Notes under the pieces: generated by a model
The model's database searches: none
What the model was told of the DNA's origin: nothing
The model's input: only the letters and a program-made list of their open reading frames with translations
Shown: piece after piece, positions 1,072 through 39,999 of the stretch
Layout: each line of letters starts with the position of its first letter
How positions within the stretch are numbered: the first letter of the stretch is position 1
Virus record (IMG/VR): IMGVR_UViG_3300002137_000205
Span: 1 to 40,000 of that record
Length of the DNA stretch: 40,000 bases
Direction: 5' to 3' (one strand)
Origin: a virus
Position numbers and translations under genes: made by a program

Positions 1072-2199
1072 TCAAGCACTTGGGAGAATTCCCACTTGGG
1101 CTAGAATGGTGCTCAAAACGGAGGCAGCAGCCTGCCTTTCTTGGGCATAGTCGTACACGTTATAGTGCCTATCCGTCACACCTGCTGGTGAGTGGTTGAG
1201 GAAGCGAGCACGATCTTCATGCCCTACTCCATACTTAGCCAGCAGTGTGCCAGCGGTACGTCTGAGGTCATGCGGTGTCGTGTGCGTTATCTTCGCTTGG
1301 ACGCACAGCCTCTTGAGTGCTCCTCGTGTCGCTTCCTTTTTACACTTCAACACTCTACCTGTACCTATGCCTATGTGATCCACCAAGCACTGAGGTAGGT
1401 ACACAACATGTGCTCTGCCATTCTTAGTACGCTCTGCTGGAATCAACCAGGTAGAGCCACTCAGTTCTTCGTAGCGCATTCCATCCACTTCACCGCTGCG
1501 ACACCCTGTCGCTAGCATTAGCTGTATAGCCAGCTTGACATCATCCATCGCCTCGGATGCTTTGAGTGCCACTGCGAGTTTCTCTAGTTGATCTTCTGCT
1601 AGATAACGGGACTGGGGTATCTCCTTATATCTCCGCAGGCCTAACGCGGGATTGAACTCGATGTAGTCACGCTCTAGCAGCCATCGACAGAAGCTCGACA
1701 GCACAGACTGATAGCGATTAGCCTGGGCGGGAGTGCCTGACATTGAGTCTAATAGATGCCTGACAGAGCGAGGTGTGATGTCCTCCAGCGAGTCGAATTG
1801 ACTCAATGTGATATCACACATGGAGTTGTATAGCTTTGCACTACTATCTGCTAGTCCTTCTACATGGCTACACTGATAGTCATACACCAAGTCTCTCAAC
1901 GACCTCTCTCTGTCAACCTCTGTAACGCGCACACGAGGCATTCTAGCTCTAACCTTGGTGATTCGTTTAGTTGTCTCTATGCGTTGCTCACAGAGCCTCC
2001 TAGCGGCCTCTACGTTGATGTCTGGATATGTCCCCAGCCGCCTCCTGATCTTGCGGGATGCTTCGTGGTAGACATGGTACAATTCGATGCGGCCCGTGGG
2101 CTTAACCTGCACCGTGAAGCCCTTGGTGACCTCATCGGTGATGTAGTAGCGTTTCTCTGCTGGCTTCAGACTCTCTAAACTCTCTGCTGTAATCTTCAT
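1072..2199 (-). CDS. int: Tyrosine-type integrase
   Basis: A 375-residue site-specific recombinase that would insert the phage into, and help excise it from, the host chromosome. The N-terminal ~75 residues look like the arm-site DNA-binding domain of P4-type integrases (GFTVQVKPTGR, RRLGTYP), then a core-binding helical domain (about 100-180) and the catalytic domain. Visible catalytic residues are R234 (TGCRSGE), K259, H310-x-x-R313 (HDLRR), H336 and Y346 (RHYN), so the enzyme looks intact. GAGGTG lies 5 nt before the ATG. The start overlaps the stop of the 59-codon gene at 2196-2375, and the attP site lies just beyond that gene. Length is normal for the family. Confidence 0.95.
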   Translation of the reverse strand: MKITAESLESLKPAEKRYYITDEVTKGFTVQVKPTGRIELYHVYHEASRKIRRRLGTYPDINVEAARRLCEQRIETTKRITKVRARMPRVRVTEVDRERSLRDLVYDYQCSHVEGLADSSAKLYNSMCDITLSQFDSLEDITPRSVRHLLDSMSGTPAQANRYQSVLSSFCRWLLERDYIEFNPALGLRRYKEIPQSRYLAEDQLEKLAVALKASEAMDDVKLAIQLMLATGCRSGEVDGMRYEELSGSTWLIPAERTKNGRAHVVYLPQCLVDHIGIGTGRVLKCKKEATRGALKRLCVQAKITHTTPHDLRRTAGTLLAKYGVGHEDRARFLNHSPAGVTDRHYNVYDYAQERQAAASVLSTILAQVGILPSA

Positions 2200-2637: not shown

Positions 2638-3027
2638 TCATCTCTTGGTCCTAGCATCGACTGCTGGCCGAAACTTGGGAGCCTTCTCAGAGCCGTCTAC
2701 AATGGCACAGAACGTCTTCATCACTGCTCTACCTTCTGGAGTCAGATAGATCACACGATAGCGTGGATCGTCATCATCTATTCGCAGAGCAACAAAGCGT
2801 TTACCCGTTGCTGCGGAGCCGAACCCTTTCGCGTTCCTGCTCACAAAGCTCTGGCTCCCCTTCATCTGCTCTGCCAGTTGCTGCATATGCACTCCCGCCT
2901 CCGGTAGATGGTACAGTGTGAGCAGCATCTGCACTTGCTGCACTTCCAAGCGCGGCTTGCTGGTTGCTGCTCTCAGGTATTCTAGCCCCGCGATCAACGA
3001 GGCTTGGTTCTCCTTTGCTTTCATCAT
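2638..3027 (-). CDS. MarR-like winged-helix regulator
   Basis: A 129-residue protein with the shape of a MarR-family repressor: an N-terminal helix, a helix-turn-helix around residues 45-75 (MQQLAEQMKGSQSFVSRNAKG), and a wing followed by YLTPEGRAVM, which resembles the MarR 'LT..G' segment. GGTGGAGGA precedes two tandem ATG codons. It is leftward, between attP and the promoter-rich region 3197-3661, where a lysogeny regulator would be expected. No CI-like repressor is visible in the window, so this is the best candidate for the lysis-lysogeny switch, but that role is inferred from position only. Confidence 0.7.
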   Translation of the reverse strand: MMKAKENQASLIAGLEYLRAATSKPRLEVQQVQMLLTLYHLPEAGVHMQQLAEQMKGSQSFVSRNAKGFGSAATGKRFVALRIDDDDPRYRVIYLTPEGRAVMKTFCAIVDGSEKAPKFRPAVDARTKR

Positions 3028-3330: not shown

Positions 3331-3485
3331 GAAGCGCCGAGCTATTATTACAACACTGGCTGTCCCTTAAATAGAGGGAAAACCCTACATTTGCTCTACT
3401 TGTTTCTATACTTAGCACTGCGTCCTCCCAGTTTACTCTACTTATATTTGACGATGCTCTACAGCCCTTTGGTAGCAAGGGTTAG

Positions 3486-3525
3486 CCAAAAGGTCGAATA
3501 TAATAATAGCAAGACCCTTTGAGAT
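3486..3525 (+). promoter_or_regulatory. Phage-type promoter candidate 3, rightward, with inverted repeat
   Basis: CCAAAAGGTCGAATATAAT is followed by AATAGCAAGACCCTTTGAG, so both arms of the inverted repeat seen at 1019-1056 are kept while the centre differs. A TATAAT hexamer at 3500-3505 might also serve host polymerase. It may be a phage promoter, an operator for a dimeric protein, or both. Confidence 0.5.
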
Positions 3526-3622
3526 AATAGAGACATAGGGACTCAGAGCGTCTGTAGTGAGGATCATAGAGACTCTCTTAGACTCTGAGCGTATGCAGAA
3601 AAGATCAAAGAGAGTCTAACAA

Positions 3623-4090: not shown

Positions 4091-4183
4091 GCTCTACTTG
4101 TTTTGCTCTACTTGTTTTCGTCTATTTGCTCTACTTGTTTTCGTCTATTTGCTCTACTTGTTTTCGTCTATTTGCTCTACTTG
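4091..4183. repeat. Tandem 23-bp iteron array built on GCTCTACTTG
   Basis: GCTCTACTTG starts at 4091, 4105, 4128, 4151 and 4174. The three middle copies belong to identical 23-bp units (4105-4127, 4128-4150, 4151-4173) continuing TTTTCGTCTATTT; the first is shortened to 14 bp and the last diverges into TTTCTATAG. More copies of the 9-mer CTCTACTTG are scattered at about 3394, 3743 and 3906. The even 23-bp spacing (about two helical turns) suggests protein binding on one face. It could be a replication origin, an operator array or a recombination site. Confidence 0.85.
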
Positions 4184-4222
4184 TTTCTATAGCTAGCAGC
4201 CGGCGGGAGCTGGTCCACTACC

Positions 4223-23257: not shown

Positions 23258-25552
23258 ATGGGCTATACAGTCGCGCAGCTTCACGCTGGAATAAAAAAGG
23301 CTCACTCTGAAGGTAACTTGGACATGGCGCGAAAGCTCTCTGCTATGGCTATGCAGCAAGAGAAGGAGGCTGAAAACACCACAGGCCTCAGCGCAGAGGA
23401 CCAAGAGCTTTTCGGCTCCACCACTGACAGCCCTGTACTCGGTGACGGCAAGATGAACCAGTTCGTAACGGGCATGGGTAGAGGAACACAGAATATAGTC
23501 GAAGGTGCTAAAGACCTCTATCTGAGAACTCAGGGATTAAACGCTGTAGGTGGTAGAACACAAGACCAAGAAGATTCACTTGATGGTTTTAATCGCAGGG
23601 CTGACGAAGAACGCGCACTGTATGAGAGAGGCTTTGGTGATAGCGGCTGGGCAACAGCAGGCGAGATAACGGGCGAAGTCCTCCCATCCGTTGTTGGTGG
23701 CATGGGCATAAACGCGGCTGTCAAAGGCACACGCATGGCAGCTCGTACTGGCCTTACGGCTATGGCTGAAGGTGGTGCTACAGAGTTCGTCATCAGGCGT
23801 GGTGACTTGGAGGATCGTGCAAAGGCTGCGGGCATAGGAGCCGTCACAGCAGGCATAGCTGACAAGGCCATAGGAGGTCTCGTTAATAAGGCAGGCAGGA
23901 ACAGAGTAGACCGCGAAGTCGCCGAGCTGGAGAACGCCAATAGAGTAGACATAGAGGATGGTGCTAACCCGATGGGTCTTACGGCTGAAGGGCAGCGCAG
24001 GAAGGCTATGGCAGAAAGAGATGGTGGATTCAAGTTGGACGCTGCTGATGCAGAGCGTCACGATATAGCCCTTCGCGAACGAGAAGCTTTACAAACTGCT
24101 GGCTCACCTGAATACCTAAAACTAAGAGCGCAGCAACAGAGTGATGTTACAGCTAGGGCTAACGAGTTTAACCCAGAAGGTTACAAGTACGACATCGAAA
24201 CGCCCAATGCAGGTAAGGACGGCGTTGAACAAGGTAGTGTGGATTTTGTTGAAACACTGAGGACACTACGGACAGGTGCAAAGACCAAGGTGAACGAAGC
24301 TTATGATTCGTGGAGGAAGTCTCACGGCTCCAATACGCTGATCGACACTGACGGTTTCAGAGCCATTATCAATGCTGAGATGAAGTCTATTCGCCAAGGA
24401 CAGAAGGGGTTAAAGAAAGACCTAGAAGAGATCATGGAGAAGCATGGCATTCGGGTCAATGTCGAAGGCAAGTCTAGCATGACGGACAGAATAGGAAGCA
24501 TGGATGGTGACTTCATTAACACTATGCCCAAAGGACAGAAGAGCCAGCCCATCTCTATTGATACTGTTGAGGAGATAATACAAGACATCAACTCTTTGTA
24601 CAAAGCGGGTGACGGCCCCTCTAATAGAGTGGCAGGTCAGATCAAGACGCGCCTGGATGATTGGGCAGTTGATAGCTTTGGTGACATTTCTAATCTCCCA
24701 CCGACACACCCCGTTCGACTCGGTAAGGAAGCTCGCGAGCTTGCAAGAGACACCTATAAGATGTGGGACGATAAGACCCTGATAGGTAAGCTCACTAAAC
24801 TAGGTGTCAACGGCGAGTCACTGGTAACAACTCCTTTGGCTAGCATTAACTCTATATTGAAGAAAGGTAACTCAGAGAAAGTTCGTGAGTTGAAAGAGGT
24901 TATGCAAGGCAACCCGCAGTTAAAGGCCGCGTGGGATGGGATCGTAAACTCTAAGCGAATGGAACTGATGGCGGCTGCTCTCAAGGCCAATTCAAAAGAG
25001 TTCAGCCACAAGGCCTACTCAGCTAAGTTCTACGAATTGGATGCCAACATGCGTAAGGCACTATGGGGCGCCGAAGCTCTCGACATGGCTAAGTCTTTAC
25101 GGGCTTGGAGTTTAAGGAACGTGAAGCCCGATGCGGCGGCGCGACTCAACAACTCCGGTACAGCAGAGTCTATAAGTGGCGCTCAACAGGTAGGAGCACT
25201 CGTTGTAGCAGGCAAGTTCGGCATCCCACTTCAGATGATTGCCCCAGTGCTACGCTTCATAAAGGGACAGTCGAAGAATGCAGAGCTTGAGAAGGCAGCG
25301 AGGGCTCTCAGTGACGGAAGCTTGCCTCCACGTTCTGTGGCTGAAGCGAGAGAGGAACTCAGAAAGGAGATTGGCGAACGACACGACATGCTGGACGCTA
25401 ACCCTGATCTGATAGACACCATTATTGACGAACTGGGTAAGGCTGCGCGTGTGGGTGTAAGAGCTACGGCTAGAGTCTCTCTGACTCCTGATGGACAGGA
25501 AGATGCAGAAGCTAGAGCGAGTAAGCTAAGAGCAGGAAGAGTGGCAAGGTGA
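23258..25552 (+). CDS. Large internal virion (ejection) protein
   Basis: A 764-residue protein, the largest of the internal set. A helical N-terminus is followed by Gly/Ala-rich stretches around residues 130-210 (GEVLPSVVGGMGINAAVKGT, IGAVTAGIADKAIGGLVN) that could insert in membranes, then a long soluble helical part. A lytic transglycosylase motif such as that in T7 gp16 is not seen. It is shorter than T7 gp16 (about 1318 residues). Its stop overlaps the endolysin start. The ejection role is inferred from size, position and composition. Confidence 0.75.
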   Translation: MGYTVAQLHAGIKKAHSEGNLDMARKLSAMAMQQEKEAENTTGLSAEDQELFGSTTDSPVLGDGKMNQFVTGMGRGTQNIVEGAKDLYLRTQGLNAVGGRTQDQEDSLDGFNRRADEERALYERGFGDSGWATAGEITGEVLPSVVGGMGINAAVKGTRMAARTGLTAMAEGGATEFVIRRGDLEDRAKAAGIGAVTAGIADKAIGGLVNKAGRNRVDREVAELENANRVDIEDGANPMGLTAEGQRRKAMAERDGGFKLDAADAERHDIALREREALQTAGSPEYLKLRAQQQSDVTARANEFNPEGYKYDIETPNAGKDGVEQGSVDFVETLRTLRTGAKTKVNEAYDSWRKSHGSNTLIDTDGFRAIINAEMKSIRQGQKGLKKDLEEIMEKHGIRVNVEGKSSMTDRIGSMDGDFINTMPKGQKSQPISIDTVEEIIQDINSLYKAGDGPSNRVAGQIKTRLDDWAVDSFGDISNLPPTHPVRLGKEARELARDTYKMWDDKTLIGKLTKLGVNGESLVTTPLASINSILKKGNSEKVRELKEVMQGNPQLKAAWDGIVNSKRMELMAAALKANSKEFSHKAYSAKFYELDANMRKALWGAEALDMAKSLRAWSLRNVKPDAAARLNNSGTAESISGAQQVGALVVAGKFGIPLQMIAPVLRFIKGQSKNAELEKAARALSDGSLPPRSVAEAREELRKEIGERHDMLDANPDLIDTIIDELGKAARVGVRATARVSLTPDGQEDAEARASKLRAGRVAR

Positions 25553-26007
25553 TCTACTACGGTCACGCAGCCATCGCTGCTGTCTCTCAGTCGCTAGGTC
25601 GTTGTTTGACCTACGCTGAGTGCCGCGTGATTGAAGAGGAAGGCTTTGTTGATGGAGACTACTGGGACACCAAGGGAATCCTAACGTCCGGTGTGGGTCA
25701 GACAGGCAAGTGGAGGGATAAGTCATTCGATGAAACCTTCCAAGCCCACGCGGATCGCGCTAGGTCTAGGCTACCTGACTTTGATGACTACCATGAGCTG
25801 TTACAGGCCGAGCTGATTCAGAGTGAGTATCGCGGTGACCTGGGGCAGAGCCCTACAGCTATGAGGCTACTCCGCGAAGGCAAGCATGAAGCTTCCGCTG
25901 ATGAGTTCCTCAACAATCGTGAGTACCTCAATCCAGAAACCTCAACAGGCATTAAGGCTCGAATGAGAGCCACATCAGAGGCCATCAGAGAACACAGACT
26001 CACATAG
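25549..26007 (+). CDS. GH24-type endolysin (lysozyme)
   Basis: A 152-residue muramidase-like protein. E31, D40 and T46 (EEEGFVDGDYWDTKGILTSG) reproduce the spacing of the T4 lysozyme catalytic residues E11, D20 and T26, followed by GVGQTG. The later segment SEYRGDLGQSPTAMRLLREG resembles the C-terminal lobe of phage GH24 enzymes. It starts at a GTG overlapping the preceding TGA, so it is translationally coupled. No signal peptide is seen, so it should depend on the holins for export. It is the last gene before the bidirectional terminator. Confidence 0.85.
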   Translation: MIYYGHAAIAAVSQSLGRCLTYAECRVIEEEGFVDGDYWDTKGILTSGVGQTGKWRDKSFDETFQAHADRARSRLPDFDDYHELLQAELIQSEYRGDLGQSPTAMRLLREGKHEASADEFLNNREYLNPETSTGIKARMRATSEAIREHRLT

Positions 26008-26533: not shown

Positions 26534-26625
26534 AGGTGTGGACCAAATAGCCACGCTAGTACAAACAGCGTTAGAACAAGCCACACACCAGAGTTATGCG
26601 CTAGTTGAATTCCCTCTATAGTCAT
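26527..26625 (-). CDS. Membrane microprotein (32 aa)
   Basis: A 32-residue ORF, MTIEGIQLAHNSGVWLVLTL followed by FVLAWLFGPHLW, with AAGGAG 8 nt before the ATG and an overlap with the stop of the diphosphohydrolase gene. Almost all of residues 12-28 is one hydrophobic span. It is coupled to genes on both sides (overlap with the next ATG), so it is likely expressed. The function is unknown. Confidence 0.55.
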   Translation of the reverse strand: MTIEGIQLAHNSGVWLVLTLFVLAWLFGPHLW

Positions 26626-27251
26626 TCGCTTCTCTCCTTGTGATAGCTGTTAAGGACATCTGCGACACCACCCGTAGCTGGAGGGCGGTCATCCACAAGT
26701 TGCCCACCCGCCATGCAATCCAAAAGAATAGCGCAGCCAGCCATAGCAGCAGCAATGTGATGAACACCGCTGTCAGCAGTGCTATCTTCGCCGTCAAGAT
26801 ACAGAGCCAAATGGCGGTGTATAGCACCGAGGTATGTAGACACAGACACCTTTTCCGATCGGTAGTTAAAGGGTCCATACTTTGCTTCTCCATCTCCTAA
26901 CGCTACAGCTAGGTGGGCAAGTGCCACTGGTGGGATTAAGTGCATTGGGGCTTTCAGTGCGCCTATACGTTTCTTCGGGTTGCCTTCGGTCTTCGCCCTG
27001 TGAGCCGCTATGGCCTCGTCAGGCGTTATCGGAACAAACTTAGCGGATGTCCTGCCCTTGAAGTAGCCCTCCCACGGCTTCTGTTCAACGCCTACATAGG
27101 CATCACGGCTAGCAGAAGCATCGTTGAATACCTTGTCTGCAAGGTAGGCTTCCTCCTCTTGGTGAGCTGTCCAGTTGATCCCTACATAGCGGTTACAACG
27201 TGTGGAGTCCCACTCTTCTTTAGTCACGTCATTAAGTCTTCCGGTGTCCAT
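26622..27251 (-). CDS. dATP/dGTP diphosphohydrolase-like protein
   Basis: A 209-residue protein (start at 27251, with AGGAGGT 6 nt upstream, preferred over 27308). The C-terminal 110 residues carry the pattern KAPMHLIPPVALAHLAVALG, then EAKYGPFNYR, HRHLALYLDGEDSTADSGVHH and AMAGCAILLDCM, typical of a phage family annotated as dATP/dGTP diphosphohydrolase (DUF5664-like, all-alpha MazG-related). It could trim nucleotides or feed the phage pool. No PurZ-like partner, which would indicate a modified-base (Z) genome, is seen. The N-terminal 95 residues are not recognised. Confidence 0.75.
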   Translation of the reverse strand: MDTGRLNDVTKEEWDSTRCNRYVGINWTAHQEEEAYLADKVFNDASASRDAYVGVEQKPWEGYFKGRTSAKFVPITPDEAIAAHRAKTEGNPKKRIGALKAPMHLIPPVALAHLAVALGDGEAKYGPFNYRSEKVSVSTYLGAIHRHLALYLDGEDSTADSGVHHIAAAMAGCAILLDCMAGGQLVDDRPPATGGVADVLNSYHKERSE

Positions 27252-27997
27252 AAGATCACCTCCTCTTTTATCTGGTTGTAGTGCTGGCTGGTTAGAATCT
27301 TGGCGCACCTCGCTTGAACCAGCGCGTCCTCTTCGCTAAGTCCTTTGCTTGCATAGGCATCGAGCACGATGTCCCATAGCTCATCGGCATCTGCCTGCAG
27401 CACCTCCTGTGCGTAGTCGCTTTGCTTGCCAACACCCTTGGCGCCACCGTAGCCATCTGTTGAGTCACCACAGATTGTTTGCCAGCATAGAAACTGGTTG
27501 GCCTCTAGTGGTGTGATGTCTATCAGGCCCACTTCGGGACGGTGTGGTGCGTAGAGTCTGCCTGGTACAGTGCGAAGGTCTTTGTCCTCGCTGATGATGA
27601 TGGTGTCGCCATAAGGCCTATCAGGGTGCGTGTGAAGGATGCCAAGAACGTCATCACCCTCTAAGCCATACCAGAGGTGAGTCTCAAAGTTTTTAATAAG
27701 GTAATCTTTCAGATCCCCAAGATAAGTTGGACGAGCATCTGCACCAGCAGCTCTGTTATCCTTGTATGTAGGTAACACACCGTTCCTAAAGTTCGACTCG
27801 CGGCACGATAGAGCCATGACAGAACGGCTTGCTCCAAACTCACTCTCCCAATCCAGTATCATCTGATGAGCATCATCTTCAGCGTCCATAAGATGCCCCA
27901 ATATCCTACCGAATGCTGTCTTCGGTTCGTGACGAGCAGCACACCGGAACGCTACAATGTCTGCATCAACTAATAGCGTCTTAGTGGACTTGTTCAT
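27224..27997 (-). CDS. 5'-3' exonuclease (T7 gp6-type, FEN family)
   Basis: A 257-residue nuclease from the ATG at 27997, which has GGAGGAGGG upstream. Visible FEN-type acidic clusters are LLVDADIVAF at the start, LEGDDVLG, SEDKDL and GDSTDGYGGAKGVGK, the last being the helical metal- and DNA-binding region. It should remove RNA primers and degrade host DNA during replication and recombination. It overlaps the 50-residue gene upstream by 17 nt and the next gene by 28 nt. The predicted catalytic acids are all present. Confidence 0.9.
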   Translation of the reverse strand: MNKSTKTLLVDADIVAFRCAARHEPKTAFGRILGHLMDAEDDAHQMILDWESEFGASRSVMALSCRESNFRNGVLPTYKDNRAAGADARPTYLGDLKDYLIKNFETHLWYGLEGDDVLGILHTHPDRPYGDTIIISEDKDLRTVPGRLYAPHRPEVGLIDITPLEANQFLCWQTICGDSTDGYGGAKGVGKQSDYAQEVLQADADELWDIVLDAYASKGLSEEDALVQARCAKILTSQHYNQIKEEVILWTPEDLMT

Positions 27998-34037: not shown

Positions 34038-35714
34038 TTAGAATGGGCAATCGTCTGATGATGACGGCCCACCGTTCAGTGTCTCTTCGTATCGCTCGAT
34101 CTCATGTGGCATCAGTTCATACTGCCTCCCAGTGTTAGCGTCATAGCCCATCAGAACGGTGCAGCCAGTTGCCTGACCCGTGTAACGGTCTTTAACGATT
34201 CTCAGAGTGGTGACAGTTTTCACGAAGCCATCATCAGCCTGGGTGTTCCGCTCGAAGGCGATCATGTAGTGACCCCACTGGGCGATAGAGCGTGACCCTT
34301 TGAAATGTCTAGCCATCACCCTGCCTCCTTCTTCGTGAGGCTTACCGTCAGGTGTTGCTAGGTGACTGACCACATACAGATTGATCGACAGCTCTTGGCA
34401 GATAGAAGACATCTCTTCTGTCATCGCCTCGATAGCCTTACGCTCATCCTCAGCATGGGCTACCAGGGCAGTAATGTGGTCAATCCAGAAGTGCTTAACT
34501 CCCTGTGTGGTTAGCCACCGGATGTTGTCCTTTATGCTGTCCCAGTCCTTAGCACCGAAATGGTCATACAGGTCTGGGTCGTACAGTTCGCACAGGTCAT
34601 CGACAGCAGCATCTAAGTCTTCAGCCGTGTAGTTGCCTGCATCCGGTGGCAGGTGAAACATCTTGCCTGCCAGCTTCCCAGCCATCCTCTTGCCCGTTTC
34701 TATGACGGGTTGTTCTAGCAGGAACACTGCACTCTTCTCACCGCACTTAACGTCCTCTACGAACTGCTGTAAGCACCAGTCTGTCTTACCCACACCAACA
34801 CCAGCGCCGATGAAGTACAGCTCACCTGAGCGTCTACCGTAGGTCAGAGCGTTGAGCTGTGGCATACACCAAGGCAAGCCCCACTCCACTACCTTCTTCA
34901 TCTCCTCCTTCAAGGATGAAAGCTTTACCAGCCCGTCTGGACTCCACGCCTGTGCAGAGAAGATGGCAGAGATAACCTCTCGGCTTCTCCCCGCCTTCAG
35001 CATCTCGTTGGCATCGTTCAGGGCTAGCGTTGCAATCTTGACGCGCTCATCAAATAGCTTGCTAACTTCCTTCGCTGCTTCTCGTCCTGGTTCATCCTGA
35101 TCAAACATTAAGATGACTTCAGGGAACGAGTTGATGTAGTCACGGCTTCTGCCACACACATCGACAGCAGACTTTGTCCCATTAGGTAGGCTGACCACTG
35201 GATACTTGTTGTCTTGTATCTGACTGACACTCAACGCATCCATCTCGCCTTCCGTGATGATCAGCTTCCTGCTACTACCACTGGGCCAGACATCTTGGAA
35301 GACAAGGCCTGCCTGCCTCGTATCACCCACATAGCGGAAGTCTTTATTCGCCATCCGTACCTTGGCGGCAACAGCACTGCCATCTTGATTCGGGACGCGA
35401 ACAATGTGAGCCTTCTTAGGTATCCAATCCTTTTCGTCACTGGACTTGACGAAGTATTCACCGACTGTGTAGCGCATCTTGCGACAGGTTTCCTCGGTGA
35501 TGCCTCGCTTGGGAATCGCTTGATACTCACCGAGTTCAGGCAGCTTCATTGATTTGGTGCGTGGCGTAGCCTTAGTGGCATCGTAGTCAGAGCCTGCTCT
35601 CTCCCAGTGGCCGCAGCCGTGGGTGAAGCAGTGTGCTCCTCCGTCCACATACCTTGCTAAGTTGTCAGCAGAGCCGCACTGGTCGCAGGGTTCGTGATGA
35701 GAGAAGTCCGACAC
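34038..35714 (-). CDS. Primase-helicase (T7 gp4-type)
   Basis: A 558-residue bifunctional protein (T7 gp4: 566). The zinc-binding domain has C10-x2-C13 and C29 with H32/C34; the TOPRIM primase core has EGEMDALS (E155) and MFDQDEPG (D205, D207); the DnaB-like helicase has Walker A GAGVGVGKT (303-311), the Walker B-type WIDHITALV, and VVSHLATP and KGSRSIAQW later. It should prime and unwind at the replication fork with the polymerase and SSB of the same arm. It lies 3 nt from the HTH gene upstream. Confidence 0.95.
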   Translation of the reverse strand: MSDFSHHEPCDQCGSADNLARYVDGGAHCFTHGCGHWERAGSDYDATKATPRTKSMKLPELGEYQAIPKRGITEETCRKMRYTVGEYFVKSSDEKDWIPKKAHIVRVPNQDGSAVAAKVRMANKDFRYVGDTRQAGLVFQDVWPSGSSRKLIITEGEMDALSVSQIQDNKYPVVSLPNGTKSAVDVCGRSRDYINSFPEVILMFDQDEPGREAAKEVSKLFDERVKIATLALNDANEMLKAGRSREVISAIFSAQAWSPDGLVKLSSLKEEMKKVVEWGLPWCMPQLNALTYGRRSGELYFIGAGVGVGKTDWCLQQFVEDVKCGEKSAVFLLEQPVIETGKRMAGKLAGKMFHLPPDAGNYTAEDLDAAVDDLCELYDPDLYDHFGAKDWDSIKDNIRWLTTQGVKHFWIDHITALVAHAEDERKAIEAMTEEMSSICQELSINLYVVSHLATPDGKPHEEGGRVMARHFKGSRSIAQWGHYMIAFERNTQADDGFVKTVTTLRIVKDRYTGQATGCTVLMGYDANTGRQYELMPHEIERYEETLNGGPSSSDDCPF

Positions 35715-35716
35715 AT

Positions 35717-35947
35717 TTACGCTCCTCGTCTGCGTAGGCTGTACACAGCGTACTGGGCTCTGATCCCATGTTGAAAAGTCTTAGTGATAGGCCACCCTTT
35801 GAGCTTTAAACGATGCACTACATTGGCTACTTGGCCTATACCGTACAGGCCAGCCGCTTCGATGTGAGTGATGTCACGACTCTTTAAATGAGTCAGGATG
35901 ATGTCTGCTTGTGAGCCTTCTTTGGGCTTCTGCTTAGTCTTACGCAT
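35717..35947 (-). CDS. Small helix-turn-helix protein (76 aa)
   Basis: A 76-residue basic protein with the pattern QADIILTHLKSRDITHIEAA, GLYGIGQVANVVHRLKLKGW and a C-terminal wing (AQYAVYSLRRRG), which resembles small phage winged-helix (HTH_39-like) proteins. It probably binds DNA as a regulator or replication helper. It sits between the T7-lysozyme-like gene (overlap of 8 nt) and the primase-helicase gene. Confidence 0.7.
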   Translation of the reverse strand: MRKTKQKPKEGSQADIILTHLKSRDITHIEAAGLYGIGQVANVVHRLKLKGWPITKTFQHGIRAQYAVYSLRRRGA

Positions 35948-36362
35948 TGAGATAATCCTCGTGTTCTATGACGGGGTTAATGCCCCGAAACAGTTCTCTG
36001 TAGAATGTTGGTTGGGCCTTGGGATACAGTGAACCCATGTGCCTAACGATGGTTTGCAACGCGACCAGTTGATCCGTTGAGTAATACTTAGTGGGCTTAC
36101 TCTCCTCATCCAGACCACCTTCCAAGACAATCACGATTGAAGTTCTACCGTATCGAGGTATGAAGTCTCCTCTCTGCTCACAGGCAACTGGGCGCAGCAC
36201 CTCACCATCACCACAGATGTAGTAGTGACAGCCAAGGTCGAGGCCACCGGATGCTGACCGCTGTGCAATAAGATCAGCCAGCGCACCAGTGTCCTGCATC
36301 GTCATCGTGCTCATTATTATTATTCGAGTGACTTCATCCTCATTAAGATTGGCTCTTTTCAT
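35940..36362 (-). CDS. T7-lysozyme-like protein lacking zinc ligands
   Basis: A 140-residue homologue of T7 gp3.5, which is both a cell-wall amidase and an inhibitor of the phage RNA polymerase. Similarity is clear at LDLGCHYYICGDGEV and TSIVIVLEGGLDEESKP. The amidase residues are not conserved: at the position of zinc ligand H17 there is M17, at Y46 a Cys (C45), and the C-terminal segment YRELFRGINPVIEHEDYL has neither the His122 nor the Cys130 equivalent. It is therefore probably catalytically dead, leaving the polymerase-regulating role. Its ATG overlaps the HNH stop, and the polymerase gene is in the same arm. Confidence 0.8.
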   Translation of the reverse strand: MKRANLNEDEVTRIIIMSTMTMQDTGALADLIAQRSASGGLDLGCHYYICGDGEVLRPVACEQRGDFIPRYGRTSIVIVLEGGLDEESKPTKYYSTDQLVALQTIVRHMGSLYPKAQPTFYRELFRGINPVIEHEDYLNA

Positions 36363-36763
36363 GTAGCCTCCTTTTTACGAGCAGCTCTCTCCGCTGCCGT
36401 TTTCCAAGCGTGGTCCGTGGTGCAAAGCACTTGTAGATTCTCAGGCTCACAGAAAAGCCTCTCAACGAAACCAGGCAGATCGCTGTAAGCCTTCAAACTC
36501 CCAGCAGGCACGATGTGGTCCACAGCTACATTCTTAGCCTCGAACCATCCCTTACACTCTGCACACTGATACTCGAAGGTGTGCTTACCTGCAGCGCCTC
36601 TAGGTTTAAGTCGTCTAGCGTTGGCGAGTGCAGCGTATTTCGATGGGTAGCGCATACTTGCGCCTCGAAGAGCGGAGCGGATGAAAGACCAGTATCGGGC
36701 TTCCGTCCACTTACCTGCCGCTCGCGTTCTCGCTACACGCTGTTTAGAAGTCTTCGTTGTCAT
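36359..36763 (-). CDS. HNH endonuclease
   Basis: A 134-residue nuclease starting at MTTKTSKQRVARTRAAGKWT, whose ATG overlaps the last 20 nt of the SSB gene. It has YQCAECKGWFEAKNVAVDHI: the CxxC zinc pair, then the HNH core (VDHIVPAGS), and the later CEPENLQVLC and CTTDHAW segments. In this position T7 encodes endonuclease I (gp3), which resolves junctions; here an HNH protein takes its place. The function is likely recombination or DNA degradation. Confidence 0.82.
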   Translation of the reverse strand: MTTKTSKQRVARTRAAGKWTEARYWSFIRSALRGASMRYPSKYAALANARRLKPRGAAGKHTFEYQCAECKGWFEAKNVAVDHIVPAGSLKAYSDLPGFVERLFCEPENLQVLCTTDHAWKTAAERAARKKEAT

Positions 36764-37469
36764 CTGCAAGTTCCTGTTCTGCAGAGAGGTCACCCGCTTC
36801 TGGCAGCTCGTCTTCTTCAGACTCTTCGGGAGCTTCATAGCCGCCTTCGTGTGCGGTGAAGCTAGAGCCTGCTGGCGTATCTCGTGTCACCAGTTCCATT
36901 ATTTGTGCTGCACAGAGTCGCATTGAAACTCCAGCGCGTCCTATCCCAGGGGCGCAGTACGGGTTAAGCTCTGCTTCCAAATTGACAAGGCTTCCTTCGT
37001 CGATCTTCCCCGCTTTCTTGCCCATCTGCGCTGCCTTTGCATCAAACAATGGAAGCTTGAATGTCCACTCCTGCCCTTCTTTCTTGCCGAATCGAAAGAC
37101 ACCCTTTGCTGGGCGTTTGAAGAAAACCATCAAACGACCAGTAGGCTCGTTATCCTCGTACTCATCAGATATTGGGCTGGACAAAATGATGGTAGGAATC
37201 TGTGACAATAGAGTAGCCTTCTTCTTACCTCCTGCTTCTTCCGCAGCATCTTTGAGAGCCTGTATGCCCTCATCAAAACCAGCCTGTGCTGCTGCGTTGA
37301 CTTTCTCTATGAATGCACCGACACCTTCGTCTGCTGGGTCAAGGATCAAATGCGCTTTGTATTCCAGCTTATCGTTGTATAAATCTGGAACAGATAGTGC
37401 AGGGAAAGGGCCGAGCAGTCCTGTGGGACTTACTATCATTTCGTTCTTAACATACTTAGATTGAGCCAT
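36744..37469 (-). CDS. Single-stranded DNA-binding protein (T7 gp2.5-type)
   Basis: A 241-residue protein (T7 gp2.5: 232). The N-terminal ~200 residues read as the OB-fold domain (GLLGPFPALSVPDLYNDKLE, GRLMVFFKRPAKGVFRFGKK, ELNPYCAPGIGRAGVSMRL), followed by an acidic tail ending DDNEDF; a terminal Phe after acidic residues is what T7 gp2.5 uses to contact polymerase and helicase. GAGGAAGAAG lies upstream of the ATG. The tail is encoded in DNA that is also the start of the HNH gene. Confidence 0.9.
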   Translation of the reverse strand: MAQSKYVKNEMIVSPTGLLGPFPALSVPDLYNDKLEYKAHLILDPADEGVGAFIEKVNAAAQAGFDEGIQALKDAAEEAGGKKKATLLSQIPTIILSSPISDEYEDNEPTGRLMVFFKRPAKGVFRFGKKEGQEWTFKLPLFDAKAAQMGKKAGKIDEGSLVNLEAELNPYCAPGIGRAGVSMRLCAAQIMELVTRDTPAGSSFTAHEGGYEAPEESEEDELPEAGDLSAEQELADDNEDF

Positions 37470-37527: not shown

Positions 37528-39999
37528 CTATGCAAAGAAATACAGGCTGTCTCGGACAGCTTCTATCTCTAAAGTAGATTGGTCGGGTGGTGGTTCTATC
37601 AGTGCAAAGGTATCCGCACTGACCTGTTGTCTGACTTGATGCCAGAGGTCATCCAGCATGTTGCCAGAGTACATCGCTATGAAGCACTCACGCAGTATTT
37701 CGTTCAGCATCCCTGTGTTACAAGCATGTGTGCCGAATGAGTCATGGATCATAGCGAAGTCTTTGATGCCATTGTCCACACAGTTGTTCACTGTGATCAT
37801 TAGGTGGCAGGCATCTTGGCTGTGAACGAAGTTAGGAGCGATACTACTTATCTGCCGACCAGCGTGAAGGCTACTCCCTTGCGTTTCGATTGACATAACC
37901 TGACGCTTGCCGCCCCACGTTATCCTCACCTCCGTGGTTTCCATCGAGCGATAGTTCTGGAACACAGTGAAACCTATCGCTGTCTCCCAATGAATGGCAA
38001 GGCCTGCTTTACTGGTCACTCTGGCGACATGCTTCAGCCAGTTCATGGCAGTGTCGGCTGCTGCTAGTTCCTCTCCAATCGCCCGTTGAACTTTAGGAGC
38101 TAACCACACAGCAGCCTCGAAAGTCTGACACTCGAAGGGCTCTATGTCCCCTTTGTCTGTCAGCTTGTTTGTCCACTTGCTGATCTGTCCTACTACTCCT
38201 CGGCTCGTTACACCGTAGGGCTTAGTCATCACTGGCTGCTTCACAATGTCCCTTCTCAGTCGTGTTGACCAAGCAGTGGCTAGATCACCACAAGAGGAGG
38301 CTACCGCCTGTTTCACACTGTCCAGAACAACCGTGTAGACATCAGCAGGAGTGTCACCTGTCTGCACCACGTTCACCGCTCTGGCAGTAGGCTCATCCAA
38401 AAGCATCGCAGCGTAATGCTGCAGACCACTAGCAGAGCCGTCCATTGCAATAGGGAGGTGCGAAACAAAGCTATCACCTTGCTTCATGTATCCAGCCCAC
38501 TCGAAGCACACGGCAAGGAAGCAGAAGGGCTTGTCAGCATCCTGCCACTGAGTGTTGACGAGTGGTTGTTCAGCACACTTAACGATCCAGTCGGACGCTA
38601 GCAGGGTCCACAGCTCTCTATCCGCTAGGCTCACCTTGTCGTTGCCATAGACGTTGGCAGCATGAATAGCTAACCAGCGAGCACCTGTCTCTCCTAGTGG
38701 CAATCCTCTTGCAAACTTGAGCAGCGATTTTCCTGCATCATTTCCTTGAGGGTTGACCGTCCCAAGGCCTGCCGCTGGGTAGATTCTGGAGCGAAAGTCT
38801 AGCGTGTGAGGAAAGTAGATAGCATCTTCGTCCTTGAAGCGTTCACCTACCTTGATCTGCTGCTGCTGTACGAGCCTCTTGCTGGCCCACTTGGTACGCT
38901 CATGGTAGACATGCTTGGCCCCCGCTGACCACTCTTCTAGCTGTACCAGGTTAGCAGGGCATAGCTTCCACGCTGTCCACTCTTCCTTTGGCATATCAGG
39001 CCAAGGCTTGATAGGCAGCTCCGGTTGCTGGCTAGCCGCTACACCCGCACCGCCACCACTCGTATTCATGTGGCTCAACACCTCCAGCACCTGCGTGTTG
39101 ATCTTCCAAGGAGTCGCTTGTATAGCGTTCACACTGTCCATGACATCACTAAGGTCTGTTGCATCTAGCTTGGCAGCTTCAGAGGCTCGAACCTTCGCCA
39201 ATGAGAGGTTATGCAACCGCTGATTGAGGTAGCCACCGTCACTCACTGAGGTCCACGGAACAGGAGGTACAACCATCGGATAGTGGAAGGGCATCAACAG
39301 GGAGTCCATAACATCTGCTTGCGCCAGCATTAGGTCGAGCGTCGCTGTGCCTCTGATGTACGCCTGTTTCTTCTTAGCCCCGCGCTGAACAACTCTCTCG
39401 AAGAGTCCTGTGGCATCACAGAAGCTCTGCACCAAGACAGCACCTGTACACACCAGGCTCTGAGCTGTCCACTTGAGTCCCTCGAACTCAGCGGATCGCA
39501 TGGTGGCTCGTAGCACTGCTCGACTGTACTTATGGCTGGTAGTCTTGGCTATCTGCTTCTCCACCTTAGTGGCTAGCCCTATGTTGGCCTCCTTGAACTG
39601 TGCATACTCAGCCACCTCCATGACCTGTCGTGCCACACGGGTACACAGAGAGGTGTAATGCACCTTCTCCTGCAAGGCATGGTCTAGCATCACCCTGCCT
39701 GTGATGAACGCTAATTGATCACTCTGTAGTAGGAGCACATGCTGCAATGCTGCTGACTTACGAGTGATCTTCGACTGATCGTATACCCACTGATCTATGG
39801 CATCCGCAGTGAGTCTTACACAACCTCTGAGTGAGGCTCGGGCAGAGGAGGAGCCATCCACTAGCCCTCGACTCTCTACTCTCTTGACGCAGGCATCCTG
39901 CGCTACCGCTACTGCTTCCTCTTCTAGTTGAATCTCTCTCGCTAATAGCTTTGGGTGGCTATCTACCACCTCCTGATAAGTCAGGTCTGCTACTGTCAT
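37528..39999 (-). CDS. T7-type single-subunit RNA polymerase
   Basis: An 823-residue phage RNA polymerase (T7: 883). Motif A is AMDGSASGLQHYAAML (D near 519), motif B RDIVKQPVMTKPYG (K near 585, Y near 595), and motif C IHDSFGTH (D near 752); SSIAPNFVHSQDACHL also matches the family. The C-terminus YFFA parallels the FAFA end of T7. The segment matching the specificity loop, about 30 residues before SIAPNFVHSQD, differs from T7, in line with SP6-like rather than T7-like promoters here. It should transcribe both arms. Another copy of its first 312 codons occurs at 1-938. Confidence 0.96.
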   Translation of the reverse strand: MTVADLTYQEVVDSHPKLLAREIQLEEEAVAVAQDACVKRVESRGLVDGSSSARASLRGCVRLTADAIDQWVYDQSKITRKSAALQHVLLLQSDQLAFITGRVMLDHALQEKVHYTSLCTRVARQVMEVAEYAQFKEANIGLATKVEKQIAKTTSHKYSRAVLRATMRSAEFEGLKWTAQSLVCTGAVLVQSFCDATGLFERVVQRGAKKKQAYIRGTATLDLMLAQADVMDSLLMPFHYPMVVPPVPWTSVSDGGYLNQRLHNLSLAKVRASEAAKLDATDLSDVMDSVNAIQATPWKINTQVLEVLSHMNTSGGGAGVAASQQPELPIKPWPDMPKEEWTAWKLCPANLVQLEEWSAGAKHVYHERTKWASKRLVQQQQIKVGERFKDEDAIYFPHTLDFRSRIYPAAGLGTVNPQGNDAGKSLLKFARGLPLGETGARWLAIHAANVYGNDKVSLADRELWTLLASDWIVKCAEQPLVNTQWQDADKPFCFLAVCFEWAGYMKQGDSFVSHLPIAMDGSASGLQHYAAMLLDEPTARAVNVVQTGDTPADVYTVVLDSVKQAVASSCGDLATAWSTRLRRDIVKQPVMTKPYGVTSRGVVGQISKWTNKLTDKGDIEPFECQTFEAAVWLAPKVQRAIGEELAAADTAMNWLKHVARVTSKAGLAIHWETAIGFTVFQNYRSMETTEVRITWGGKRQVMSIETQGSSLHAGRQISSIAPNFVHSQDACHLMITVNNCVDNGIKDFAMIHDSFGTHACNTGMLNEILRECFIAMYSGNMLDDLWHQVRQQVSADTFALIEPPPDQSTLEIEAVRDSLYFFA
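39062..39999. repeat. Terminal direct repeat, right copy (overlap of genome ends)
   Basis: Identical to 1-938 except for GG in place of AA (39300-39301). The final base of the window (40000) is G where 939 is A, but one base past the match cannot show whether the sequence truly diverges. See the left copy for interpretation. Confidence 0.9.

Follow-up and report, generated by a model that had tools for sequence, protein, structure and literature searches.

The gp3.5-like protein encoded in the window, the whole 40,000-nucleotide stretch analysed here, has the fold of T7 lysozyme and none of the residues of its zinc amidase site. With a probability of roughly three in four, it is a natural separation-of-function T7 lysozyme, its amidase site decayed and the protein kept for restraint of the phage RNA polymerase (RNAP). 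In T7, gp3.5 combines amidase activity with inhibition of the phage RNAP, to which it binds partly through its N-terminal tail. To our knowledge, these two functions have previously been separated only by laboratory mutants.

Bases 1-938 of the window are repeated at 39062-39999 with two mismatches, a direct terminal redundancy of 938 bases at 99.8% identity. Because the record is terminally redundant, it very probably represents an entire T7-like phage genome, circularly read and about 39.06 kb long. The RNAP gene crosses the ends of the record and, as a result of the redundancy, its 5' end is repeated at 3-1010. The features of the window are:

1072..2199, minus strand: tyrosine integrase, upstream of the RNAP gene (PHROG 1, E 7e-55)
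2638..3027, minus strand: MarR-like transcriptional regulator, adjoining the integrase (PHROG 9665, E 1e-9; MarR_2, E 0.007)
25549..26007, plus strand: GH24-like lysozyme, 152 aa, candidate dedicated wall hydrolase, either endolysin or virion lysozyme (Pfam Phage_lysozyme, E 0.016; E31-D40-T46 spacing)
34038..35714, minus strand: T7 gp4-like primase/helicase (PHROG 239, E 6e-154)
35717..35947, minus strand: winged-helix (HTH_39) protein, 76 aa, overlapping the end of the gp3.5-like gene (PF14090, E 5e-11)
35940..36362, minus strand: gp3.5-like protein, 140 aa, T7-lysozyme fold without zinc ligands or catalytic Tyr/Lys (sequence searches, alignments, AlphaFold2 model)
36359..36838, minus strand: HNH endonuclease, with a 4-base overlap with the start of the gp3.5-like gene (PHROG 1985, E 5e-26)
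36367..36371, minus strand: Shine-Dalgarno sequence GGAGG of the gp3.5-like gene (sequence)
36744..37469, minus strand: gp2.5-like ssDNA-binding protein, SSB (PHROG 112, E 9e-12)
37528..39999, minus strand: T7-type single-subunit RNA polymerase, proposed partner of the gp3.5-like protein (PF00940, E 8e-106; PHROG 414, E 2e-216)

The early and replication block on the minus strand runs RNAP, gp2.5-like SSB, HNH endonuclease, gp3.5-like gene, HTH_39 protein, primase/helicase, DNA polymerase and exonuclease. At the gp3.5-like gene this matches the T7 order of RNAP, SSB, nuclease, gp3.5 and primase/helicase, and the T7-type RNAP is encoded in the same genome. The integrase and regulator upstream of the RNAP are an arrangement known from temperate T7-like phages such as LUZ100 (PMC10134795). 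This integrase/MarR module is flanked by 53-base inverted elements that are 87% identical (1006-1058 and 3484-3535), possibly an operator, promoter or att-related pair. A 39-base exact direct repeat with a 7-base spacer is present at 4102-4186, in the region preceding the late genes. The reading frame at 26622-27308 on the minus strand matches PHROG 2252 (E 2e-42), whose label reads 'endolysin; inhibits RNA polymerase'. This reading frame was rejected as a second gp3.5, the Pfam match being to the N-terminal domain of dATP/dGTP diphosphohydrolase (PF18909). The PHROG 2252 label seems to be an error that would misdirect automatic annotation.

The open reading frame at 35940-36362, reported in a preliminary description, starts with ATG on the minus strand and encodes 140 aa. 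It has start and stop overlaps with both neighbouring genes and a good Shine-Dalgarno sequence. The encoded protein matches the PHROG 822 amidase at E 7e-12 and T7 lysozyme (1ARO/1LBA) at E 1e-3 as a single sequence and at E 2e-57 with a family profile. The PF01510 search that had been proposed gave Amidase_2 at E 6e-5, under the curated cut-off (23.7 versus 26 bits). The AlphaFold2 model has a mean pLDDT of 91.5 and a pTM of 0.86. With this model, the top two PDB matches in Foldseek are 1LBA (E 8e-10, TM 0.81) and 1ARO_L (TM 0.83), the free T7 lysozyme and its RNAP-bound form, respectively. Both fold-defining segments of T7 gp3.5 quoted in the preliminary description are present, and the invariant structural positions T21, H46, I49, G53, G65, G82, G83 and Q98 are retained. 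The protein is a homologue of T7 gp3.5; the sequence similarity is well above chance, and the modelled fold match is the decisive support.

In T7 lysozyme, the zinc site is formed by H17, H122 and C130, with Y46 and K128 catalytic (numbered as T7 without Met), and T7 gp3.5 is an active amidase. In the window protein, read against this site without a gap, all three ligands are replaced (H17 by M17, H122 by Y121 and C130 by N129), as are both catalytic residues (Y46 by C45 and K128 by G127). The absence of the zinc ligands and catalytic Tyr noted in the preliminary description is thus borne out, no zinc or catalytic position being occupied in any of the alignments made. Further near-invariant positions of the family are also lost (H35, R51, R59 and N72). 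Ligands that had merely shifted would have left a conserved alternative site among the remaining His and Cys residues (C45, C50, C61, H46, H107 and H134). Such a site was considered and rejected, since the nearest orthologue, from the phage of locus L228, is without any Cys and has its single nearby His displaced by one position. The Y46F mutant of T7 lysozyme has no amidase activity, according to a statement cited in PMC8124813. As this change alone abolishes the T7 amidase, the loss of all five residues makes catalysis implausible, and it is close to certain from the residues present that the amidase has been lost from the window protein.

A single-sequence search of IMG/VR with the window protein gave no match, and its relatives were instead reached via the RNAP and via alignments. 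The L228 orthologue came from a targeted scan in which the RNAPs of the window, L187 and L003 served as queries; the L228 RNAP is 51% identical to that of the window. At 40% identity its gp3.5 is the nearest orthologue found, and it lacks the same five residues, with M at the Y46 position and the helix after strand 1 also lost. The N-termini are alike (MKRANLNEDEV in the window, MRRAKLDPDEV in L228). Between the two gp3.5 genes, fourfold sites are saturated (0.76) and 44% of residues are identical, the same pattern being seen for the SSB and RNAP. Selection on the zinc-free protein is supported for this pair. RNAP trees group the window, L228, L187 and L003 with full support. L187, the next in the tree, has H, F, S, G and S at the five site positions, and gp3.5 is absent from L003, L244, L270 and many other T7-like phages. 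In the three gp3.5-less relatives L003, L244 and L270, an HTH_39-like stretch is fused to an endonuclease VII-like protein (L003 10678-11199, L244 3442-3963 and L270 2960-3505); the window and L187 encode it instead as a gene of its own following gp3.5.

Most homologues in the first locus set have the residues HYHKC at the five site positions (121 of 154), the rest including variants and clear losses. Alignment A3 and scans gave 42 loci with 28 distinct zinc-free proteins of about 123 aa, and further ones appeared in later scans. This large clade, here called Lysobacterales-type, comes from IMG/VR contigs, from genomes of Stenotrophomonas maltophilia, S. sepilia, Dyella silvatica and Rhodanobacter sp., and from one MAG, with prophages of Stenotrophomonas, Dyella and Rhodanobacter among them. 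H17 is mostly C, T or L in these proteins, Y46 is replaced by V (V/C), and a deletion of the C-terminal part takes out H122, K128 and C130 along with the whole C-terminal wall of the cleft. An AlphaFold2 model of one member, L046, nevertheless matches 1LBA (pLDDT 91.1, TM 0.83). Pairwise dN/dS (Nei-Gojobori) is 0.03-0.3 among close pairs, the higher ratios being between distant pairs, where synonymous sites are near saturation. The clade proteins are shown to be under purifying selection.

Other losses are found in two lineages of marine T7-like phages. The gp3.5 homologues of contigs L102, L104 and L110 are without the C-terminal zinc half. Pelagiphage HTVC019P has Y46F and H122C, and L092 and L105 are likewise altered. 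HTVC168P, a relative of HTVC019P, retains four of the five residues (H, Y, H and C), with the Lys changed (K128A). In the RNAP trees, the Lysobacterales-type sequences form a second group and the marine ones are placed elsewhere. A common origin of zinc loss for the L102/L104/L110 clade with either of the other groups is rejected (p 2e-48 and 6e-5), while a single origin for the window group and the Lysobacterales-type clade is not (AU p 0.28). There have therefore been at least two independent site losses, with different lesions, and three to five are more likely. The marine proteins of L102, L104 and L110 represent an independent route to the zinc-free state.

The proposal that the amidase has been lost while the fold is kept beside the RNAP is strongly supported for the window, and it extends to the L228 orthologue, the large clade and the marine lineages. 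Regulation of the RNAP is assigned as the probable retained function because it is the one other established function of gp3.5 and because R3 is kept in the window and L228, where the basic N-terminal tails begin MKRANL and MRRAKL. The N-terminal tail, including residue 3, governs inhibition of RNAP by gp3.5, and gp3.5 homologues from several T7-like phages inhibit phage RNAPs (PMC10138996). In the large clade the tail is shorter, with the pattern [MVL][RK]LK, and is basic with no R at position 3. The end of the RNAP gene lies 1.3-2.2 kb upstream on the same strand in all 37 of the clade loci with upstream DNA. Binding and inhibition or regulation of the RNAP would best account for what has been kept. 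The absence of gp3.5 from L003, L244, L270 and many other T7-like phages counts against this reading; a brake of this kind must therefore be dispensable.

The retained role might instead lie in replication or packaging through another partner (the primase/helicase, the HTH_39 protein or terminase), not in direct inhibition of RNAP, although we regard this as unlikely. The gp3.5-like gene is within the replication cluster and overlaps the HTH_39 gene, which is its neighbour in L187 as well as in the window. T7 gp3.5 reportedly affects replication and packaging, which would favour such a role, but these effects are understood to run through the RNAP. The RNAP is also the constant upstream neighbour in the large clade, but the primase is nearly as constant a neighbour, and so linkage alone does not separate the two as partners.

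It is similarly improbable that the protein is a peptidoglycan-binding pseudo-amidase like the non-catalytic animal peptidoglycan recognition proteins (PGRPs), having lost zinc but still binding peptidoglycan or muropeptides, for example in timing lysis or sensing wall turnover. Non-catalytic PGRPs share the fold and are among the Foldseek matches of the window model, and loss of zinc with retention of peptidoglycan binding is an established route in the superfamily (PMC8124813). However, even those PGRPs that lack catalysis invariably have the catalytic Tyr (PMC8124813), and this reading is disfavoured because that cleft residue is lost here, being C45 in the window, M in L228 and V/C in the large clade. 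Against it also are the loss of the helix after strand 1 in L228, the wholly missing C-terminal wall of the cleft in the large clade, and the lack of an export signal apparent from the window protein sequence. A decaying remnant, made redundant when another endolysin arrived and drifting towards loss, would fit the absence of gp3.5 in the neighbouring lineages and the several different ways in which the catalytic site decays, but it is hard to reconcile with the open frame, strong Shine-Dalgarno sequence and high-confidence fold, the 40% identity to L228 despite saturated synonymous sites, the dN/dS of 0.03-0.3 among the closer zinc-free relatives and the persistence of the gene at a single RNAP-adjacent locus across dozens of phages, and has little probability.

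Whole records behind the loci, from near-complete phages, were surveyed for hydrolases. A GH24 lysozyme over the Pfam cut-off is present in 11 of 14 site-lost phages and in 1 of 16 site-intact phages (Fisher p 9e-5, not corrected for kinship). The positive site-lost phages are L187, 8 of the 10 Lysobacterales-type records, L104 and HTVC019P, and the sole site-intact carrier is HTVC168P, the close relative of site-losing HTVC019P. Among independent pairs, site loss and GH24 agree in 2, disagree in 0 and tie in 1, which is not significant alone, and few independent events underlie the association between site loss and a separate endolysin. Three site-lost phages have no GH24 over the cut-off. 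L228 has a homologue of the window GH24-like protein, 50% identical to it. The L217 phage has a second amidase with an intact zinc site, which adjoins the terminase gene in the lysis region (L306 4632-5066, minus strand). In L037, an ORF adjoining the terminase gene has a lysozyme-like E-S-R stretch and no Pfam or PDB match. The genome of the L217 phage thus encodes the fold twice, in diverged form: once in the intact amidase and once in a zinc-free gp3.5-like gene next to the RNAP. HTVC168P apart, no other hydrolase of the families tried was found in the site-intact phages. Searches for GH19, GH108 and two M15 peptidase families as other endolysins found little, the GH19 search having no control that gave a signal.

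The window genome had been credited with its own GH24 endolysin and holins. The protein at 25549-26007 is GH24-like, with E31, D40 and T46 at the spacing of T4 lysozyme, but its Pfam E-value is only 0.016; the holins were not confirmed. The GH24-like protein aligns with the beginning of PHROG 37474, a profile of 2087 positions, and the start of its gene overlaps the end of the ORF for a 764-aa internal virion protein. Its role could be that of a virion lysozyme and not of the endolysin.

We infer that the new endolysin came first and site decay second. With a separate lysozyme available for wall breakage, the gp3.5 amidase would become redundant and its site could then decay completely. Selection would keep the fold, the N-terminal tail and the RNAP-adjacent position, as the protein would still bind and restrain its own RNAP, and it may help to switch the RNAP from middle transcription towards replication and packaging. 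On balance, gp3.5 proteins without the amidase would be dedicated regulators of the phage RNAP, a class that has emerged repeatedly, in several lineages, once lysis had passed to a separate endolysin. A special link of the brake to lysogeny, suggested in the preliminary description, is not supported. An association of zinc loss with lysogeny was discarded, since T7-like phages with an integrase commonly have an intact site (35 integrase-hit loci with an intact gp3.5 site versus 8 with any variant site); site loss tracks a separate endolysin.

No prior description of an amidase-free gp3.5 class was found in the open-access literature, the scope of the search, and the natural separation-of-function variant is apparently undescribed there. 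Evolution seems to have separated the two functions of T7 lysozyme itself, more than once, with the result under purifying selection. Zinc-free gp3.5 thus makes it possible to ask directly which of the two functions is needed by phages. If the proposed reading is true, polymerase control is the conserved, selected role of gp3.5 and lysozyme activity the dispensable one. In T7-type expression systems, where amidase toxicity is a stated problem (PMC10138996), such proteins may serve as RNAP brakes that are non-lytic and so probably less toxic. Annotations that name zinc-free proteins amidase or lysozyme would need to be corrected.

Among known systems, the Amidase_2 endolysins (PF01510, PHROG 822) have superfamily and fold in common with the window protein, but theirs is a zinc amidase chemistry that the window sequence cannot support. 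The non-catalytic PGRPs (PGRP-SA, -LC and -LE) have a T7-lysozyme-like fold with zinc ligands lost, as here, yet these animal immune receptors keep the Tyr and the binding cleft, whereas in the window protein the Tyr and cleft positions are lost. LUZ100, S2B and HTVC019P are T7-like phages that have an integrase and carry gp3.5 in the position seen in the window. Unlike the window protein, gp3.5 of LUZ100 and S2B has a complete site; that of HTVC019P shows partial loss (Y46F, H122C), and the record annotation is simply lysozyme. T7 gp3.5 (1LBA, 1ARO chain L) shares with the window protein its fold, length and N-terminal tail with R3, and in both genomes the gene lies downstream of the RNAP, with a nuclease gene before it and the primase after it. 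T7 gp3.5 has the full site and is an active amidase, whereas the window protein, at about 22% identity, has all five residues replaced.
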